Shown here one piece after another: positions 4,816-43,910 of a DNA stretch of 64,000 nt (positions are counted from its first letter, which is position 1; every line of letters starts with the position of its first letter). The translations under genes and the position numbers were made by a program. The notes under the pieces are model-generated. The model did no database searches. It saw only the letters and a program-made list of their open reading frames with translations, and was not told where the DNA came from. The DNA comes from Opitutaceae bacterium. GTDB lineage: Bacteria > Verrucomicrobiota > Verrucomicrobiia > Opitutales > Opitutaceae. Where the stretch lies: positions 496,001-560,000 of the forward strand of contig JAIXWF010000022.1 in NCBI GenBank assembly GCA_027482185.1, given 5' to 3'.

Positions 4816-4957
4816 TTGAACCACGGAGACGCGGAGAACACGGAGACAAACCCCGCCGAAGATATCTGGACTTGGGCCTGCCCCCTGAGAATCCGTCCTT
4901 CGAGCCGCCTTTGCCCCAAGCCTTTCTCTGTGTCCTCTGTGTCTCGGTGGTGAAAAT
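4816..4957. repeat. CCACAGAGG-family palindromic element, two arms
   Basis: The left arm (4816-4846) reads TTGAACCACGGAGACGCGG then AGAACACGGAGA. The right arm (4924-4952) is its imperfect reverse complement (TTCTCTGTGTCCTCTGTGTC then TCGGTGGTG). About 77 bp of unrelated core separates them. The arms are themselves built of a degenerate CACGGAGA word. Related arms occur at 14418, 16577, 36680-36855, 36906-37052 and 51688. No gene is seen in the gap 4801-5000. Confidence 0.8.
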
Positions 4958-6656: not shown

Positions 6657-8486
<1,830 letters not shown>

Positions 8487-8615
8487 ACGGCGATTGGGGC
8501 CCGGAGGCGGATTCAGCTCAAACCGATAATTGGGAAAGGGGAAGCGGGGAGCGGTCGGCGCTCAGCGGTCGGCGTCGGGGCGGCGACGCCGCGTTTGCGC
8601 GGCGACGGGATTCGG

Positions 8616-8785
8616 CCGCCAAGCGGCGCAAAGGGCGCAAGAGGTGCGATACGTCGAGGAGCCTCTGAAAAACCTGCGGGTGATTGGGCGGTCGGCGGAA
8701 TTCGGCCCTTGGGATGGCCGCAAAAACACGCAAAATCCGCGGCCGAGGCAGCCGATTTTTTGCGCTCTTTGCGCCGCTTGGCGGC
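8616..8785. repeat. 170-bp palindromic element with AAGCGGCGCAAA arms
   Basis: The intergenic gap 8487-8871 holds no credible gene. It contains an inverted repeat: arm GCCGCCAAGCGGCGCAAAGG then GCGCAA (8616-8641) pairs with TTGCGCTCTTTGCGCCGCTT then GGCGGC (8760-8785) with one mismatch, around a core of about 118 bp. Organisation resembles the palindromic elements at 4816 and 36680 although the sequence differs. Confidence 0.75.
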
Positions 8786-8871
8786 AATCTGCCCTCCGGG
8801 GCCGGGCAAGAAACTCAGCCGCGCGTTTTTCGGAGGTTCCTCGAAGCTGCGACGACGTTGTGGCTTTTGGG

Positions 8872-16525: not shown

Positions 16526-16853
16526 GGGGAAAGGCGGAAGGCGAAAGGCGGAAGGCGAAAGGACGGAAACGGATTGGAACACAGAGGGCACGGAGACGAA
16601 CCGGAGGAGCACGGAGGGCGGGCGGGGGATTGCGGAAGGCGGATTGCGAAGTGCGGATTGGGGCGGAGGGAGCGAGGTCGGCCGGGGGAAGTCGGTGGCG
16701 TGAGAATCGGGGCTGGGCCGCAGGGCAGAGATTGGAACCACGGATTTCACGGACGGGCACGGATTCTCGGCCGGAAGCATACAGTTGGGGGCGTGGCTCG
16801 ACGGATCGGTCTCTCAACCATCAACTTTCAACTCTCAACTCCATGATTCCGGT
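16526..16853. repeat. Repeat-rich intergenic gap
   Basis: The 328-bp gap contains no supportable gene. It holds a GGCGGAAGGCGAAA tandem tract (about 16530-16566), a CCACAGAGG-family arm (16577-16620), a GCGGATTGCGAAGTGC tract (16628-16661), a further CCACGG-type arm (16735-16765), and a TCTCAACCATCAACTTTCAA tract (16811-16841). All five families recur elsewhere in the window. Confidence 0.7.
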
Positions 16854-17201: not shown

Positions 17202-17406
17202 CGGATCGGCGAGCCATTGCAGCGGGTGGTCGGCTTTGACGGCTTTGACGCGGTGGGAATTGGAAGGGCGGGAAATGGGAAAAGCGGAAAAGTGGAAAAT
17301 CGGAAAACGGGAGGAGAGGTGAAAGGCGGAAGGCGAAACCCGGAAATTGGGAAATCGGGAAATTGGAAAACGGGAATTGCCGGAAGGGGAATTGGGGAAA
17401 CGGGAG
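17202..17406. repeat. GGGAAATT/GGAAAA tandem-word tract
   Basis: The gap between the small unknown gene and the second S9-like gene is mostly degenerate repeats of GGGAAATGGGAAAAGCGGAA (about 17266-17312) and GGAAATTGGGAAATCGGGAA (about 17339-17400). A shorter similar tract is at 1128-1166. Nothing else is recognisable. Confidence 0.6.
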
Positions 17407-19383
17407 TCAGCGCCAGGATTCGTCGAAGAAACCGGCGGCGACGATTTTGCCGGGCCAGCGGGGGCCGGGCGGCGTGCGCAGGTCGACGACGGCCCAGTCG
17501 GGGAGCTTCGGCGTTTGCAGCGCGTTGTTGCCGTAGCCTTCGCTGCGGAACGTGATGCCGCTGTTGAGCACGACGTAGCGGCGCGGGTTGAGCGGATTCG
17601 GAAAAACCAAAATCGGCGCGTGGTGTTTCGCGTCGTAGGCGGTGCCGCGGAAGGTCAGCGTCTTCGCGTCCCACGCGACCGGCAATTGCGCGATGATCTT
17701 GGCGAGAACGGAATTGGAGGACGGGTCGCCCCAGAGGATGAGGTTGCGGTCGGCGAGGTCGGCGTCGGTCACGGCGCGGTCGGCCTTCACGGGCGCGTCG
17801 CCGCGGTAAACGTCGCGCCAGAGGCGGCGCGCGGCGGTGAGCTCGGCCTCGACCCAGGCGCCGAGTTCGGGCGAGAGCGGTTTGCCGGAGGGGCGGACGA
17901 AGAGGAAGGCATCGACGAAGGCGTCGTCGACGGGGCCGGTGAGCCCGGGACGTTTGCGCAACGCGGTCGGGTCGGCGAAATCCGCGGGGGCGTTTTGCCA
18001 GCGGCCGTCGCGGCGCACGAGGACGGTGCGGACGGGGGCCGTGGGTTGGAGCGGGCGCACGGTGTCGCCGTCGATCGTGACGGCGGCGGGGGCGCCGGGG
18101 AAGGAGAGCGCGGAAACATTTTTTGTGACGATGACCGGATCGGCGCCGGGGGCGGCGGTGAAGCGGAGGTCGGCGCGTTCCCAGTGTTTTTCCAAACCTT
18201 CGACGCGCAGGCCGCGGGGGCCGTCGGCGTAGCGCAGCGTGTAGGTGCTGAAGCGGACGTCGCGCGGGGCCGGGTCGCGGCCGGCGGCGAGCAGGGATTC
18301 GAAGCGCGCGGTGAGCTCGGCCTTGGTGGCGTCGTGGTATTTGTGCGCGGTCTGCGGGCCGATGAAGCGTTCGAGCTTGAGGCCCTGCGCGGCGAAAGCG
18401 GCGGCCATGAGGTCGGAGGCTTCCTTCTGGCCGTCGAGTTCGCCGGTGTAGGCGAGGGTGGGGAGGTGCGTGAAGTTGGCGGCGATGCCGGTGGACTCGT
18501 ATTGGCGCCAGAGCATTTGCTCCCAGGCGGGGCGCGGTTCTTTCCCGGGCGCGAGGGCCTTGGTGAAGATGGGCGTTTCGGCGAAGCCGGCGCCGGGCGA
18601 GGCGACGGCCCAGAGGCCGGGGTGGTGCGCGGCGAGATGCCAGGAGCTGCCGCCGCCCATCGAGAAACCGGCGACGGCGATGCGGTCGGCGTCGATGTGG
18701 TATTGGGCGCGGACGGCGGCGAGGGCCTCGAAGACATCGGTCTCGCCGGCGAACTTGGTCGCGTTGCAGAAGCGGCCGTAGGGGATGAGCGTGAGCGTGT
18801 CCGCGGGCGCGAGCTGCGGCGGGGCGGCCTCGCGTTCGGCGAAGAAGGCGAGCTCGGTGCGTTTCTCGCCGCGGCCGAGCAGCCAGACCATCATTTGGCG
18901 GTGCGGCTTGGGCCACGTGGGCGGGACGACGAGGGCGTAGGGCTGGACGGAGCCGTCGATTTTCGAGCGGTAGCCGCGGAGGATCGTACCGGTGGCGGTG
19001 AGCCAGGGGGAGCGGCGGTCGCGGAGCTGGGCGGCGCGTTCGCGGCCGCGGGCGAGGAGCTGGCGCGCATAGGCGAGGTCCTTGGGCGCCATGAACTCGT
19101 CGTAACGCAGGGCCCAGTCGACGGCCTTGTGGAAGATCTCGGCGTCGGGCAACAGGGCCGCGAGAGCCGCGGACTCGGGCGCGGCGAGGTCGCGGGCGAG
19201 GGCGTCGAGGTCGGCGCGGAGGGCGGCGGCGCCGGCGGCGAGCTCGGCCTTGTCCGTATCCGCCAAAGTAAGACCGGGCGGCGGGATGACCTTGGGCGGC
19301 GTGAACGCCGCGGGCGGGGTCTGGGCCGCGAGCGGGGCGGCGAGGGCGAGGCAGCAGGCGGCGAACGGGGCGGCGAGGCGCAT
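17407..19383 (-). CDS. Secreted prolyl-oligopeptidase-type alpha/beta hydrolase, paralogue 2
   Basis: The protein has 658 residues; start ATG 19383 opens a signal peptide (MRLAAPFAACCLALAAPLAA). It matches its neighbour at 14519-16525 along the full length: PDAEIFHKAVDWALRYDEF, LLGRGEKRTELAFF, IPYGRFCNATKFAGETDVF, GFSMGGGSSWHLAAHHPG (nucleophile Ser), and TAHKYH are all shared. Predicted role is hydrolysis of a peptide or ester outside the cytoplasm. The AraC-type regulator gene lies 46 bp upstream on the same strand and is a good candidate for its control. The tandem arrangement with a small gene between suggests local duplication. Confidence 0.8.
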   Translation of the reverse strand: MRLAAPFAACCLALAAPLAAQTPPAAFTPPKVIPPPGLTLADTDKAELAAGAAALRADLDALARDLAAPESAALAALLPDAEIFHKAVDWALRYDEFMAPKDLAYARQLLARGRERAAQLRDRRSPWLTATGTILRGYRSKIDGSVQPYALVVPPTWPKPHRQMMVWLLGRGEKRTELAFFAEREAAPPQLAPADTLTLIPYGRFCNATKFAGETDVFEALAAVRAQYHIDADRIAVAGFSMGGGSSWHLAAHHPGLWAVASPGAGFAETPIFTKALAPGKEPRPAWEQMLWRQYESTGIAANFTHLPTLAYTGELDGQKEASDLMAAAFAAQGLKLERFIGPQTAHKYHDATKAELTARFESLLAAGRDPAPRDVRFSTYTLRYADGPRGLRVEGLEKHWERADLRFTAAPGADPVIVTKNVSALSFPGAPAAVTIDGDTVRPLQPTAPVRTVLVRRDGRWQNAPADFADPTALRKRPGLTGPVDDAFVDAFLFVRPSGKPLSPELGAWVEAELTAARRLWRDVYRGDAPVKADRAVTDADLADRNLILWGDPSSNSVLAKIIAQLPVAWDAKTLTFRGTAYDAKHHAPILVFPNPLNPRRYVVLNSGITFRSEGYGNNALQTPKLPDWAVVDLRTPPGPRWPGKIVAAGFFDESWR

Positions 19384-20416: not shown

Positions 20417-21280
20417 ATGCCCAATCCCTGGACCGGAAAAGGAAACCCTTACACCCGCGAGGAAGTGCGGGCGCGGCTGCAGGCCACGATCGCGAAACAG
20501 CAGGCGATCATCGCCGCCGGCGCCGGCACCGGCATCAGCGCGAAGTTCATCGAGAAGGGCGGCGCCGACCTGATCATCATCTATAACAGCGGGCGTTTCC
20601 GCATGATGGGCCACGGTTCCACCGCGGGCATGATGGCCTACGGCGACGCCAACGCGATCGCGATGGAGATCGGCGAATTCGAGGTGCTGCCCGTCGTCGA
20701 GGAAGTGCCCGTGATCTGCGGCGTGCACGCGACCGATCCGCGCCGCCGCATGTGGCACTGGCTCGGGAAGGTGAAGGAAATGGGTTTCTCCGGCGTGAAC
20801 AATTTCCCGACCCACACGATCGTCGACGGCCACTTCCGCGGCGTGCTCGAGGAGACGGGCATGAGCGTGAAGAAGGAATACGAGATGGTCGCGCTCGCGC
20901 GGCGGATGGACCTGTTCTCCATCGTCTACGTCGGCTCCCCCGAGGAAGCCGCGGAAATGGCGAAGGCCGGCGCCGACGCCATCATCGCCCACGTCGGCAC
21001 GACGGTCGGCGGCAGCATCGGCGTGAAGAGCGCGGTCGTGAGCTGGGAGCACACGCTCAAAGTCACCCGCGACATCATCGCCGCCGCGAGCGCGGTGCGG
21101 AACGACATCTTCTACCTCTGCCACGGCGGCCCCATCAACACGCCGGAGGACGCCGCGCGCGTCATCGCCGCCACGCCCTGCGTCGGCTTCGTCGGCGCGA
21201 GCAGCCTCGAGCGCATGGGCGTCGAGGAATCGCTCACGAACCTGACGCGGAAGTTCAAGACGATCGGGTTGAAGAAGTAG
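20417..21280 (+). CDS. Phosphoenolpyruvate hydrolase-like TIM-barrel protein (TIM-barrel signal transduction family)
   Basis: The product has 287 residues from ATG 20417. It matches the family annotated as PEP hydrolase-like / TIM-barrel signal transduction protein (PF09370): AAGAGTGISAKFIEKGGADL, YNSGRFRMMGHGSTAGMMAY, VICGVHATDPRR, NFPTHTIVDGHFRGVLEETG, HVGTTVGGSIGV and ITFLCHGGP-type strand (FYLCHGGPINTPEDA). The same domain is fused to a UPF0261 domain in the tomato Tm-1 protein, and a UPF0261/Tm-1-like gene lies 5.2 kb downstream, so a shared pathway is inferred. Reaction and substrate remain unproven. Confidence 0.85.
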   Translation: MPNPWTGKGNPYTREEVRARLQATIAKQQAIIAAGAGTGISAKFIEKGGADLIIIYNSGRFRMMGHGSTAGMMAYGDANAIAMEIGEFEVLPVVEEVPVICGVHATDPRRRMWHWLGKVKEMGFSGVNNFPTHTIVDGHFRGVLEETGMSVKKEYEMVALARRMDLFSIVYVGSPEEAAEMAKAGADAIIAHVGTTVGGSIGVKSAVVSWEHTLKVTRDIIAAASAVRNDIFYLCHGGPINTPEDAARVIAATPCVGFVGASSLERMGVEESLTNLTRKFKTIGLKK

Positions 21281-21420
21281 CGGGTAGCGAGTAGCGGGTA
21301 GCGGGCATGCGGCAATTTTCGCCGGCACCCCGCCGCCCGCGGCGCCGCCGGACTTCGCGCACCGCTTACCGATTTCCGTTTTCCCAATCCGCAATTCGCA
21401 ATCCGCGATCCGCAATCCAT
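21281..21420. repeat. Tandem-word tracts between PEP-hydrolase and cupin genes
   Basis: The 146-bp spacer starts with a GCGGGTAGCGAGTAGCGGGT tract (about 21279-21305) and ends with a CAATCCGCAATTCGCAATCC tract (21385-21420). The latter recurs at 29011-29041 and in reverse orientation at 16628-16661. Confidence 0.6.
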
Positions 21421-26320: not shown

Positions 26321-26481
26321 TATATAAGACCGGAATGCGGAAACCGGAGACCGGAGACCGCAGACCAGAAACCAGAAACCGAAAACTGAAGACCGGATGA
26401 AGGCTTTCGAACCTGTCTGGATCGTTTCCGGCTGCCATTGAGTCTCCGGTTTCCGGTCTCCCAATTCCGGTTTTATATCAT
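26317..26481. repeat. 165-bp inverted repeat spanning stop and start codons
   Basis: Left arm 26317-26351 (ATGATATATAAGACCGGAAT, then GCGGAAACCGGAGAC) and right arm 26442-26481 (reverse complement ATGATATAAAACCGGAATTG, then a related tail) flank about 90 bp of AGACCAGAAACC-type degenerate words. The upstream gene's TGA lies in the left arm and the downstream ATG begins directly after the right arm. A stem-loop here could limit read-through or set the translation of the Tm-1-like gene. Confidence 0.75.
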
Positions 26482-28929: not shown

Positions 28930-29041
28930 AGTTGAGAGTTGAGAGATGAGGGTTGAGAGATCGATCCCCCCTTCCCCCGCTCACGGCCATGGGGCTCGGC
29001 AGCACCCCGGCGATCCGCAATCCGAATTCCGCAATCCGCAG
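28930..29041. repeat. Two tandem-word repeat tracts
   Basis: Between the phosphoesterase and the response regulator (convergent genes) are GTTGAGAGTTGAGAGATGAG plus GGTTGAGAG (28930-28960), a TTGAA-family copy, and CGATCCGCAATCCGAATTCC then GCAATCCGCAG (29011-29041). Nothing resembling a terminator is seen. Confidence 0.6.
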
Positions 29042-31338: not shown

Positions 31339-31386
31339 GAGAGGGTGGTCCGGCGCGGCGGCCGGCCCGGGTCGGCGCGGACGACG

Positions 31387-32187
31387 TCAGATTTTGGCGA
31401 GGATGGCCTTGAGGCGCACCCAGGCTTCGTCGCGGGCTTTTTTGTTGGGCTCGGTGGCGTCGGGCTGTTCGCCGCTGCGCATGAAGCCGTGGCCGGCCCC
31501 CTCGTAGGTGACGGGCTCGTAGAGCTTGCCGGCGGCCTTCATCAACTCGGTGGTCTTCGGGATGGAGGCGTTGATGCGGGCGTCGTTGCCGCCGTAGAAA
31601 CCGTAGACCGGGACGGCGATGCGGGCGATTTCCTCGGCGGTGGCGGGGGCGTCACCGTAGAACACGAGGGCGGCCTTGAAGTCTTTGTTGTTGGTGGCGA
31701 AGCGGAAAGTCTGGCGACCGCCCCAGCAGAAACCGCCGACGACGACCTTGCCGTTGCTCGCGGGCAATTTGCCCACGTAGGCGGCGACGGCGGCGAGGTC
31801 GCCGGTGATTTGTTCGGGGGTGAGCGACGAGAGGGCCTTGCCGACGGCGTCGCGGCTGCCGAGCTCGGCCGTGCCGCCGCCGCCGGGTGCGGTGCCGGAG
31901 AGGAGGTCGGGGGCGATGGCGATGTAGCCGGCCTCGGCAAGTTGGTCGACGACGCTGCGGGCCCAATCGGTCAGGCCCTGGTTTTCATGGATGACGACCA
32001 CGGCGGTGGCCTTGTTCTTGACCTCGGGGAAACCGACGAAGGCCTTCACGGCGCGGTCGCCGTTTTTCACGGTGACCCATTCGAGGTGGCGCGGCGTTTT
32101 TTCGAGGCGGGCCTTGGCCCAATCCTGGGCGGCGGCGGTGGAGACGAGCCCGAGGAGGGCCGTGAGGGAGAGCAGCAGACGTTTCAT
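31387..32187 (-). CDS. Secreted dienelactone hydrolase family protein
   Basis: The protein has 266 residues from ATG 32187, with a signal peptide (MKRLLLSLTALLGLVSTAAA). The alpha/beta hydrolase core shows VVVIHENQGLTDWARS, the nucleophile elbow GGFCWGGRQ (Cys in place of Ser, as in dienelactone hydrolases), YGGNDARI with the acid residue, and YEGAGHGFM with His. Such enzymes hydrolyse lactones or carboxylic esters; a periplasmic member may act on plant-derived ester substrates. Its own Rho-independent terminator lies downstream at 31314-31338. It reads divergently from the beta-helix protein gene. Confidence 0.85.
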   Translation of the reverse strand: MKRLLLSLTALLGLVSTAAAQDWAKARLEKTPRHLEWVTVKNGDRAVKAFVGFPEVKNKATAVVVIHENQGLTDWARSVVDQLAEAGYIAIAPDLLSGTAPGGGGTAELGSRDAVGKALSSLTPEQITGDLAAVAAYVGKLPASNGKVVVGGFCWGGRQTFRFATNNKDFKAALVFYGDAPATAEEIARIAVPVYGFYGGNDARINASIPKTTELMKAAGKLYEPVTYEGAGHGFMRSGEQPDATEPNKKARDEAWVRLKAILAKI

Positions 32188-33895: not shown

Positions 33896-33955
33896 CCCCG
33901 CGCCCGTCGCTCCGACCCAAAACCCAAGACCCCAAACCCAAAACCCCGAATTTCG

Positions 33956-36656: not shown

Positions 36657-36679
36657 GACCGGCAAAGGGAATGGGGAGT

Positions 36680-36855
36680 TTTGCCACAGAGGGCACAGAG
36701 ACGGACCGGAGGGTCACGGAGGATTGAGGGAGTACGCTTGGTTGATTCTGGAGAATCGGCCGTTGGTTTGGTCGCGGAGCGAACGGAGCGTAGCCTCTCT
36801 AAACACTCTGCTCCGGGACCTCTGTGACTCCTCCGTGACCTCTGTGGTCAAAAGA
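36680..36855. repeat. CCACAGAGG-family palindromic element, two arms
   Basis: Left arm TTGCCACAGAGGGCACAGAG, then ACGGACCGGAGGGTCACGGA (36680-36722), and right arm 36816-36855 (reverse complement) enclose about 93 bp of unique core. It lies in the 438-bp gap between the mutarotase-like and NamZ genes, together with a second element at 36906. No gene is seen in the gap. Confidence 0.85.
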
Positions 36856-36905: not shown

Positions 36906-37052
36906 TGAACCACAAAGGGCACGGAGACGAACCGGAGGGTCACGGAGTTGGGATTGGGGGAACGGAGGTGCAATTCCTGCTTCGATTGCCGATATGGGAA
37001 TGTTTCCTCCGTGGCCTCTGTGACTCTCTCTGTGAACTCTGTGGTCCTTCCG
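36906..37052. repeat. CCACAGAGG-family palindromic element, second copy in the same gap
   Basis: Left arm GAACCACAAAGGGCACGGAG then ACGAACCGGAGGGTCACGGA (36906-36947), right arm 37005-37052 (reverse complement), with about 57 bp between. The left arm is close to the left arm of the preceding element, so two copies lie back to back in one gap. Confidence 0.85.
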
Positions 37053-43571: not shown

Positions 43572-43910
43572 ATGCGGCCGGTTTTTGGGGAGGACAGGAG
43601 GAGACAGGATTTCCGGGCCGGGATTAACGGGAGGGAATTCCGTTCCGTTAATCCGGGTCTGGGGCGGCCGTTCGTTCAGGTCTCGCCTATGGGTGCGAGG
43701 ATTTCGACCAAGGCGAAGGACAGGAGGGACAGGATTCGGAATGCCTTCCGGTCAATCCCGGTTTGGGCATTTCCTGTTCATCCTGTCCTCTGCCTTGGAG
43801 GACATGAAAAACAGGAAGATGAGGCCGGAGATCAACGGGACGGGAATTCGTTCCGGTTAATCCCGGTTCGGACGCTCCCGTGAATCCTGTACCCTGTCTT
43901 GGCGCGCAGC
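43572..43910. repeat. Palindromic GGATTAACGG / ACAGGA repeat cluster
   Basis: CCGGGATTAACGG (43618-43630) and CCGTTAATCCGGG (43645-43657) are a perfect 13-bp inverted repeat. A second related pair, ATCAACGGGACGGGAATTCG with TTCCGGTTAATCCC, lies near 43831-43865. Direct GACAGGAGGAGACAGGATT-type words flank both units and return inverted as TCCTGTTCATCCTGTCCTC. Two element copies seem to be fused. This explains the whole gap 43545-43917. Confidence 0.7.

Follow-up and report, generated by a model that had tools for sequence, protein, structure and literature searches.

The intergenic hairpins of the window (the whole stretch of DNA analysed, 64,000 nucleotides long, G000:C19:496001-560000, in a genome of 6.43 Mb and 24 contigs) are probably derivatives, lacking a gene and presumably non-autonomous, of small mobile elements in which a word array, an IVP or GxxExxY gene, and the inverted array follow one another. 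Two protein families are concerned—that is, PF05635, the 23S rRNA IVP, a four-helix bundle, and PF13366, or GxxExxY, with a PD-(D/E)XK fold.

Inverted word arrays in the window

Six places in the window had been described in the first-pass annotation as different sequences of one architecture, and arms or word arrays were found at all six, although that at 4816 has word arrays alone. Ungapped arms of at least 12 nt were not found there, and the gene-less element at 4820-4952 carries GxxExxY-type words, CACGGAGAN / CACAGAGN, in arrays delimited by eye (4820-4847 and 4924-4952). The gene-less element at 26322-26478 is built from the IVP-type heptamer ACCGGRR, with arms of 37 nt (26322-26358/26442-26478, 86%), and that at 36679-36852 from the GxxExxY-type word CACAGAGN/CACGGAGN, with two pairs of arms (36679-36700/36831-36852, 82%; 36712-36732/36820-36840, 81%); folding of 36680-36852 gave z = -4.8 as DNA and -5.1 as RNA relative to shuffles. 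A second element with the same word lies at 36910-37047 (arrays 36910-36947 and 37007-37047), its first 38 nt being 92% identical to 36684-36721. The architecture named at 36906 was borne out by word arrays at both ends, but not by a separate arm pair in the ungapped-arm listing, where the sole pairing is a longer one with 36684-36723. Elements with the word GACAGGAN occupy 43590-43893 (arms 43701-43734/43772-43805, 79%), and an internal GGAATTCCGTTCCGGTTAATCC-like unit recurs in the GACAGGA elements at a spacing of 104-105 bp (window 43634-43871).

The element at 8616 is a composite, with a hairpin overlapping a separate repeat that has inverted ends of its own. Inverted arms with GCGCAAAG words at 8615-8785 (8615-8640/8760-8785, 26 nt, 96% complementary) reach a score of 47, and alignment of copies delimited a 187-bp dispersed repeat at 8656-8842 whose own inverted ends, GAGGAGCCTCTGAAAAAC / GTTTTTCGGAGGTTCCTC, are imperfect; of the two hairpin arms, the right one lies inside this unit and the left one outside. 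With 8616-8785 as a query against the genome, six further copies were obtained at 80-85% identity over most of the query, plus weaker pieces, and several copies of the 8656-8842 unit were seen by eye to adjoin different word arrays.

The six listed elements are real, but the window contains more arrays, for example at 1129-1266, 16792-16850, 17278-17376, 21277-21418, 28930-28957, and 33915-33946. The array scan resolved 1129-1266 into three adjacent arrays of different words (periods 8, 7, and 7) and 21277-21418 into a GTAGCGR array and a period-7 array of ATCCGCA type; two or three unrelated words share one spacer at these places, as if elements with different words accumulate there. The array at 16792-16850 (minus strand) was identified by copy search as a shortened copy of a 150-bp, gene-less GTTGARR family, and 31380-31387 is an empty site at which the close relative G006 has the 150-bp GTTGARR element between two TCAG copies. 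Words of the window recur at gene-bearing elements elsewhere in the same genome (ACCGGRR at L096, CACAGAGN at L099, and GACAGGAN at L101), and in relatives, GxxExxY genes such as those at L139 and L154 are bordered by CGCAAAG-type words. A known RNA family for the hairpins was ruled out, there being no Rfam match in the window at the gathering score.

Word arrays in a 1.26-Mb sample of the genome

A spacer sample of 570 intergenic regions was drawn from the window and 1.2 Mb of contig C3 (1.26 Mb together). The best self-complement score, in which perfect palindromes count double, was at least 40 in 58/570 spacers, vs. 12/1710 dinucleotide shuffles. The sample contains 178 tandem word arrays, with a period of 7 in 123, 9 in 22, 8 in 14, and 10 in 5, against about one per period in shuffles, and their words are diverse: GTTGARR, GTTCGGA, ATTGCGG, ACCGGRR, TCAGCNN, GTAGCGR, CACAGAGN, CACTGATNNN, GACAGGAN, GGGACNGAT, and others. 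Given many unrelated words and an excess over shuffles, the occurrence of one shape in many sequences is therefore real. The earlier proposal of different sequence families with one shape, namely degenerate short words in inverted arrays around a variable core, was in this way confirmed against shuffled controls, and the shape persisted, rather than vanishing on wider sampling, across the repeats of 1.26 Mb, a part of the genome. The converse idea that all copies are one decayed family does not hold for the arrays, which form many word clusters, but does have a counterpart in the core of the 8616 element, homologous in seven copies as a separate nested repeat.

Several gene-less clusters, such as ATTGCGG (10 arrays), ACAGCTG (13), and AAAACCC (11), are not matched by the word of any of this genome's 11 IVP and GxxExxY genes. 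A further hairpin family, of GTAGGGGCGCGGCTCGTCCGCGCC type (C3 28519-28602, 895849-895931, and 1134817-1134924 of G000), shows no obvious short-word periodicity and falls outside the word-array explanation.

Arrays around IVP and GxxExxY genes

IVP and GxxExxY genes often stand near words of this kind, which prompted a search for both families. The genome containing the window gave 7 matches to PF05635 (6 above the cut-off) and 4 to PF13366; five of these were scanned and carry the NCBIfam names four helix bundle protein and GxxExxY protein, both of which are NCBI names without a stated function. Inverted word arrays were observed in the flanks of these genes, with the words differing between genes, and 10 of the 11 have matched inverted arrays at a score of at least 26. 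The single miss, L097, is a PF05635 match below the cut-off whose arrays, seen by eye, lie beyond the tested flank.

Among 57 genomes searched, PF05635 was found in 40 and PF13366 in 42. The 149 loci taken from this genome and its relatives (76 IVP and 73 GxxExxY) comprise all 11 of the genome itself and otherwise higher-ranking listed matches. At a score of at least 26, matched inverted arrays were found at 67/76 IVP and 66/73 GxxExxY loci (133/149 in total), vs. 68/1094 and 76/1052 (144/2146 in total) for mismatched upstream and downstream pairs from different genomes, 6/131 for shifted windows, 58/935 for genes in general, and 15/165 for genes of 250-600 bp. At a score of at least 34, the comparison is 102/149 family loci vs. 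10/935 genes, one of the ten being itself an IVP gene, and 1/165 genes of 250-600 bp.

The two families also differ in period: among the passing loci of the first 69, the period was 7 in 28/33 IVP cases and 9 or 10 in 26/32 GxxExxY cases, with a common skeleton, roughly CRCNRAN, discernible by eye in most GxxExxY words. The genes between arrays had been retrieved as PF05635 or PF13366 matches, and two that were re-scanned against Pfam had no other match. Three C3 genes between matched arrays, encoding a 5′-3′ exonuclease, a CDP-alcohol phosphatidyltransferase, and a 659-aa protein without a Pfam match, were rejected as further cargo; they look like ordinary genes between gene-less elements.

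For named genomes, the best 80 of 579 confirmed IVP loci were taken, among which 60/80 pass a score of 28, vs. 71/1179 mismatched pairs, and 17/80 fall below 26. The period is 7 in 49 of the 60 passing loci, and the nearest IVP relative among these best 80 of 579 is from an Opitutia bacterium. For GxxExxY, one query identified relatives on 8 plasmids, with strong arrays in 4 (Gemmatirosa, Bacteroides, Bernardetia, and Sphingomonas) but not in the other 4, and the one query protein had no relative in viral contigs. On the Fusobacteria bacterium ZRK30 plasmid (L411), the GxxExxY gene has no word arrays but is flanked by a directly repeated sequence of about 21 nt (AGATTTAATCCGTGTACCTAT), the second copy being immediately 5′ of a ribosome-binding-like site.

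Correspondence between word and protein

A given protein lineage tends to keep to a word of its own. Cross-genome pairs with an identity of at least 0.7 have the same word in 48/68 IVP and 47/50 GxxExxY cases, and those with an identity below 0.4 in 5/1498 and 24/1002, respectively. Likewise, 39/67 IVP loci (2.8 expected) and 40/66 GxxExxY loci (4.9 expected) agree in word with their nearest protein from another genome. Same-genome pairs of less than 0.7 identity seldom agree (0/59 for IVP and 3/41 for GxxExxY), and the genome therefore does not dictate the word.

Both flanks are homologous in 44 IVP and 53 GxxExxY same-word pairs with an identity of at least 0.65, and neither flank in 18 and 7, respectively; one side is homologous in one IVP pair, and there is too little flank in 1 IVP and 8 GxxExxY pairs. 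Since most close pairs sharing a word thus stand at orthologous places, movement of gene-bearing copies is rare, and some of the agreement is simply inherited. Where the places are not homologous, the word is common to 16/20 IVP pairs at an identity of at least 0.7, vs. 7/1785 below 0.5; for GxxExxY there are just five such close pairs (at least 0.7), 3 of them with the same word. Among same-word pairs of 55-75% identity, the arms of GxxExxY elements align in 61% of pairs and the spacers in 21% of sides; for IVP, spacers align in 70% and arms in 60%, and IVP arms are therefore not conserved beyond their surroundings.

For IVP, the correspondence extends between phyla. With 59 IVP loci from among the best 80 of 579, hand-assigned to 17 phylum-level groups from record titles, IVP protein similarity between groups was found to predict word similarity (Spearman 0.30; 0/1000 permutations). 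TCAGC words occur at 12 loci in 9 groups among these loci.

Occupancy of spacers and orientation of copies

The spacer between NAD synthase and hemL was compared within the genus, having been picked because the genome containing the window has an element there, and 18/25 loci had both anchors. Seven of the 18 are empty, with about 7-17 bp from stop to start by eye and some of these genomes being mutually close, 7 contain inverted arrays, and 4 are other. CACTGAT words with a GxxExxY gene were found at L340 and L341, CACTAAT with GxxExxY at L342, CGCTRAT with a partial GxxExxY match at L343, a reversed GxxExxY gene with inverted arrays at L347, gene-less GTTGARR at L345, gene-less CACGAAA at L355, a one-sided GTAGCGR array at L349, and other sequence at L361. 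Sister species thus differ in whether this one spacer is empty, holds a gene-bearing element, or holds a gene-less one. At L346 (G003) and L356 (G001), the same spacer holds a two-gene insert with no word arrays, apparently encoding, as judged by eye, a ribbon-helix-helix antitoxin and a RelE-like toxin.

A second orthologous spacer, at 36.6-37.1 kb of the window, had both anchors at 4/20 loci: the copy in the window, L322 and L323 without arrays, and L329, which has CACGGAAG-like words in degenerate form. In G006, the sequences homologous to either side of the element at 36.7-36.9 kb are on two different contigs, internal to each (L391, G006:C47 at about 7770-7830; L390, G006:C134 at about 18700-18900), and both break points have CACGGAG-type words, pointing to rearrangement or misassembly at these repeats.

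Comparison with G006 (685 kb, about 209 kb of it in long alignments) revealed 26 length differences of at least 40 bp, at least 5 of which are, by eye, presence or absence of the 150-bp gene-less element, among them the empty site at 31380 of the window, with others involving no word array. TCAG stands on both sides of such sites when filled and once when empty in the three readable cases. Matches to the 150-bp GTTGARR family, some of them partial, stand at 43 places in 1.95 Mb, and the family is characterized by terminal inverted repeats, fixed outer ends, empty sites, and a CTSAG target on both sides. Identity of at least 4 nt between flanks was seen in 19/20 own pairs vs. 240/380 mismatched pairs, which the shared target motif makes alike. 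The family could be moved by some transposase; neither a longer copy nor a related transposase element was found among 40 scored of 197 candidates in this genome. No target duplication was established for gene-bearing copies.

With respect to orientation, 62/66 IVP and 52/64 GxxExxY copies with arrays lie in the sense direction between co-directional coding stretches; in C3 as background, the co-directional share is 629/881 gene pairs, and insertion at random would give the sense direction in half of these. Most simply read, this means that the gene is retained solely where read-through gives expression. Gene-less inverted repeats instead favour convergent spacers (22/39 vs. 126/881 gene pairs).

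Proposed mechanism and alternatives

The GxxExxY residues D60, E70, and K72 are invariant in 18 sequences, and together with a Pfam PDDEXK_3 match they are fitting for a PD-(D/E)XK nuclease; no solved relative was found by sequence. To our knowledge, IVP has no nuclease motif. It matches structure 2gsc, a homopentamer of four-helix bundles according to passages of PMC4990558. From the observed architecture, gene association, protein–word correspondence, sense orientation, and presence or absence in spacers, we infer the following chemistry of binding and movement. The encoded protein would bind the repeated word at both ends, with the arrays acting as multiple binding sites, and, once bound, would bring the ends together and promote copying or insertion into short spacers. 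Cutting would fall to the PD-(D/E)XK active site in GxxExxY elements; in IVP elements, the four-helix-bundle oligomer may form a scaffold for a host enzyme. Gene-less copies retain the arrays and, under the proposed mechanism, would therefore remain substrates, and gene-bearing copies would persist only under read-through transcription.

An alternative is a role at the RNA level, comparable to that of 23S rRNA intervening sequences, in which the elements are transcribed in operons and fold into a stem that RNase III excises, and the repeated word is bound by the protein as RNA, with spread occurring by an unrelated route. The almost invariable sense placement of gene-bearing copies inside co-directional spacers, the occurrence of the IVP family in rRNA intervening sequences, and the single-strand folding of a whole gene-bearing element and of the window element, both far better than shuffles, would suit such a role; however, sense orientation is equally expected if read-through is merely needed for expression, and where paired arms differ, the changes show no preference for G-U wobble in the sense transcript (54 vs. 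86 for IVP and 44 vs. 78 for GxxExxY, the reverse direction; 67 vs. 74, no bias, in the named IVP loci, best 80 of 579), leaving selection for a sense RNA hairpin unsupported. Spread through RNA is further opposed by the lack of an RVT_1 match in this genome (97.98% complete), and retro-mobility by a resident RVT_1 reverse transcriptase was accordingly discarded. We regard an RNA-level role as somewhat unlikely. It is highly improbable that the hairpins are generic palindromes, formed by slippage or template switching and kept as transcription terminators with no mobile element: the preference of gene-less inverted repeats for convergent spacers is as expected of terminators, but replication slippage, one of the causes suggested in the first-pass annotation, is insufficient alone, accounting neither for the gene association, the family-specific periods, and the word–protein match nor for the presence or absence of the 150-bp element between sister species, and arrays are rare around unrelated small genes (1/165 of 250-600 bp reaches 34). 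Among the causes suggested there, an unknown mobile process is the best.

Two alternatives do invoke mobility. Were the elements miniature elements of an ordinary transposase, the arrays would be subterminal repeats and the IVP and GxxExxY genes passengers. The 150-bp family, with its fixed outer ends and its CTSAG target repeated on both sides, and the terminal inverted repeats of the 8656-8842 unit speak for such an origin, which is nevertheless unlikely: mere passengers would hardly track the word, subtype by subtype, across genomes and phyla, no longer copy of the 150-bp family was seen in the 40 that were scored of 197 candidates, and the one Y1 transposase found, in a search that covered the Y1 family, has a palindrome of its own and not word arrays. 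Quite unlikely is free-standing homing, with GxxExxY cleaving empty spacers and spreading by repair at the same site. Its conserved D..ExK residues and the repeated occupation of one spacer in sister species would be natural for a homing endonuclease, but the same spacer is occupied by unrelated words, by copies with GxxExxY, and by gene-less hairpins of either word type, IVP has no known nuclease motif, and some same-word pairs stand at unrelated places. Derivation of the window hairpins from elements whose own protein reads the flanking word remains our preferred reading.

Relation to known systems and implications

REP and REPIN sequences are short intergenic palindromes present in many copies, and their RAYT partner is one cognate Y1 gene flanked by the same repeats. 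As in REP/RAYT, the repeat type goes with the protein type in the word arrays, but the genes here are IVP or GxxExxY and not a cognate Y1 (HUH) gene, the arms consist of tandem words of 7 or 9-10 nt, and many word types occur per genome. We read the window elements as like REP/RAYT in logic, with other proteins. The only Y1_Tnp match in the genome (L413:1370-2425, G000:C20) lies between TCCGGAATCCGGA/GTCCGGAATCCGGA-type palindromes and appears as a REP/RAYT-like unit separate from the word arrays; RAYT was rejected as the driver, this lone match having its own palindrome. Foldback elements and the plant elements Ac and Spm also have ends of tandem short words, those of Ac and Spm being read by the element's protein, but they are eukaryotic and have other proteins.

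Intervening sequences of 23S rRNA contain an S23p/IVP gene inside a stem of complementary ends, as described in passages of PMC4990558. The IVP elements share the gene, which GxxExxY elements do not; however, 62/66 IVP copies lie between coding stretches on both sides and not in 23S rRNA, the ends are word arrays, gene-less copies exist, and a second, unrelated gene family follows the same plan. The window itself holds no IVP gene. Intergenic arrays of the heptamer TAACTGA are reported in passages of PMC4679880 from Beggiatoaceae, cyanobacteria, and Bacteroidetes, for the most part in the vicinity of start codons; the repeats are direct, apart from one inverted repeat, and S1, Csp, and Csr are proposed there as candidate binders. 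Neither "S23" nor "helix bundle" occurs in the main text. The likeness lies in the intergenic period-7 arrays and in TAACTGA being the reverse complement of TCAGTTA. Indeed, TCAGTT-type arrays of at least 3 units flank IVP genes at 5 loci among the best 80 of 579 named loci (3 Acidobacteriota, 1 Planctomycetota, and 1 Chloroflexota), with the exact heptamer in 3/5.

A link between IVP or GxxExxY genes and word arrays was not found in the open-licence literature, with preprints and most subscription journals outside that scope, and is absent from passages of PMC4990558, PMC4679880, PMC5524665, and PMC8700078. We lean towards regarding these elements as a previously undescribed minimal class of mobile element, in which IVP and GxxExxY would have converged on reading mirrored words and word and protein would co-evolve, in the case of IVP across some 17 phylum-level groups.

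If this is true, two widespread families of "unknown" proteins would gain a function, many intergenic repeats (178 arrays in 1.26 Mb) would be explained, and a class without a classical transposase would be added to the mobile elements. Furthermore, the heptamer repeats of cyanobacteria and Beggiatoa could be explained, and a direct test would be available for heptamer repeats whose binding protein is unidentified. Overall, if the proteins read their flanking words, the many genomes with these families (40 and 42 of 57 here, and others in distant phyla) would already contain matched protein–word pairs, amounting to a natural data set for a nucleic-acid recognition code.
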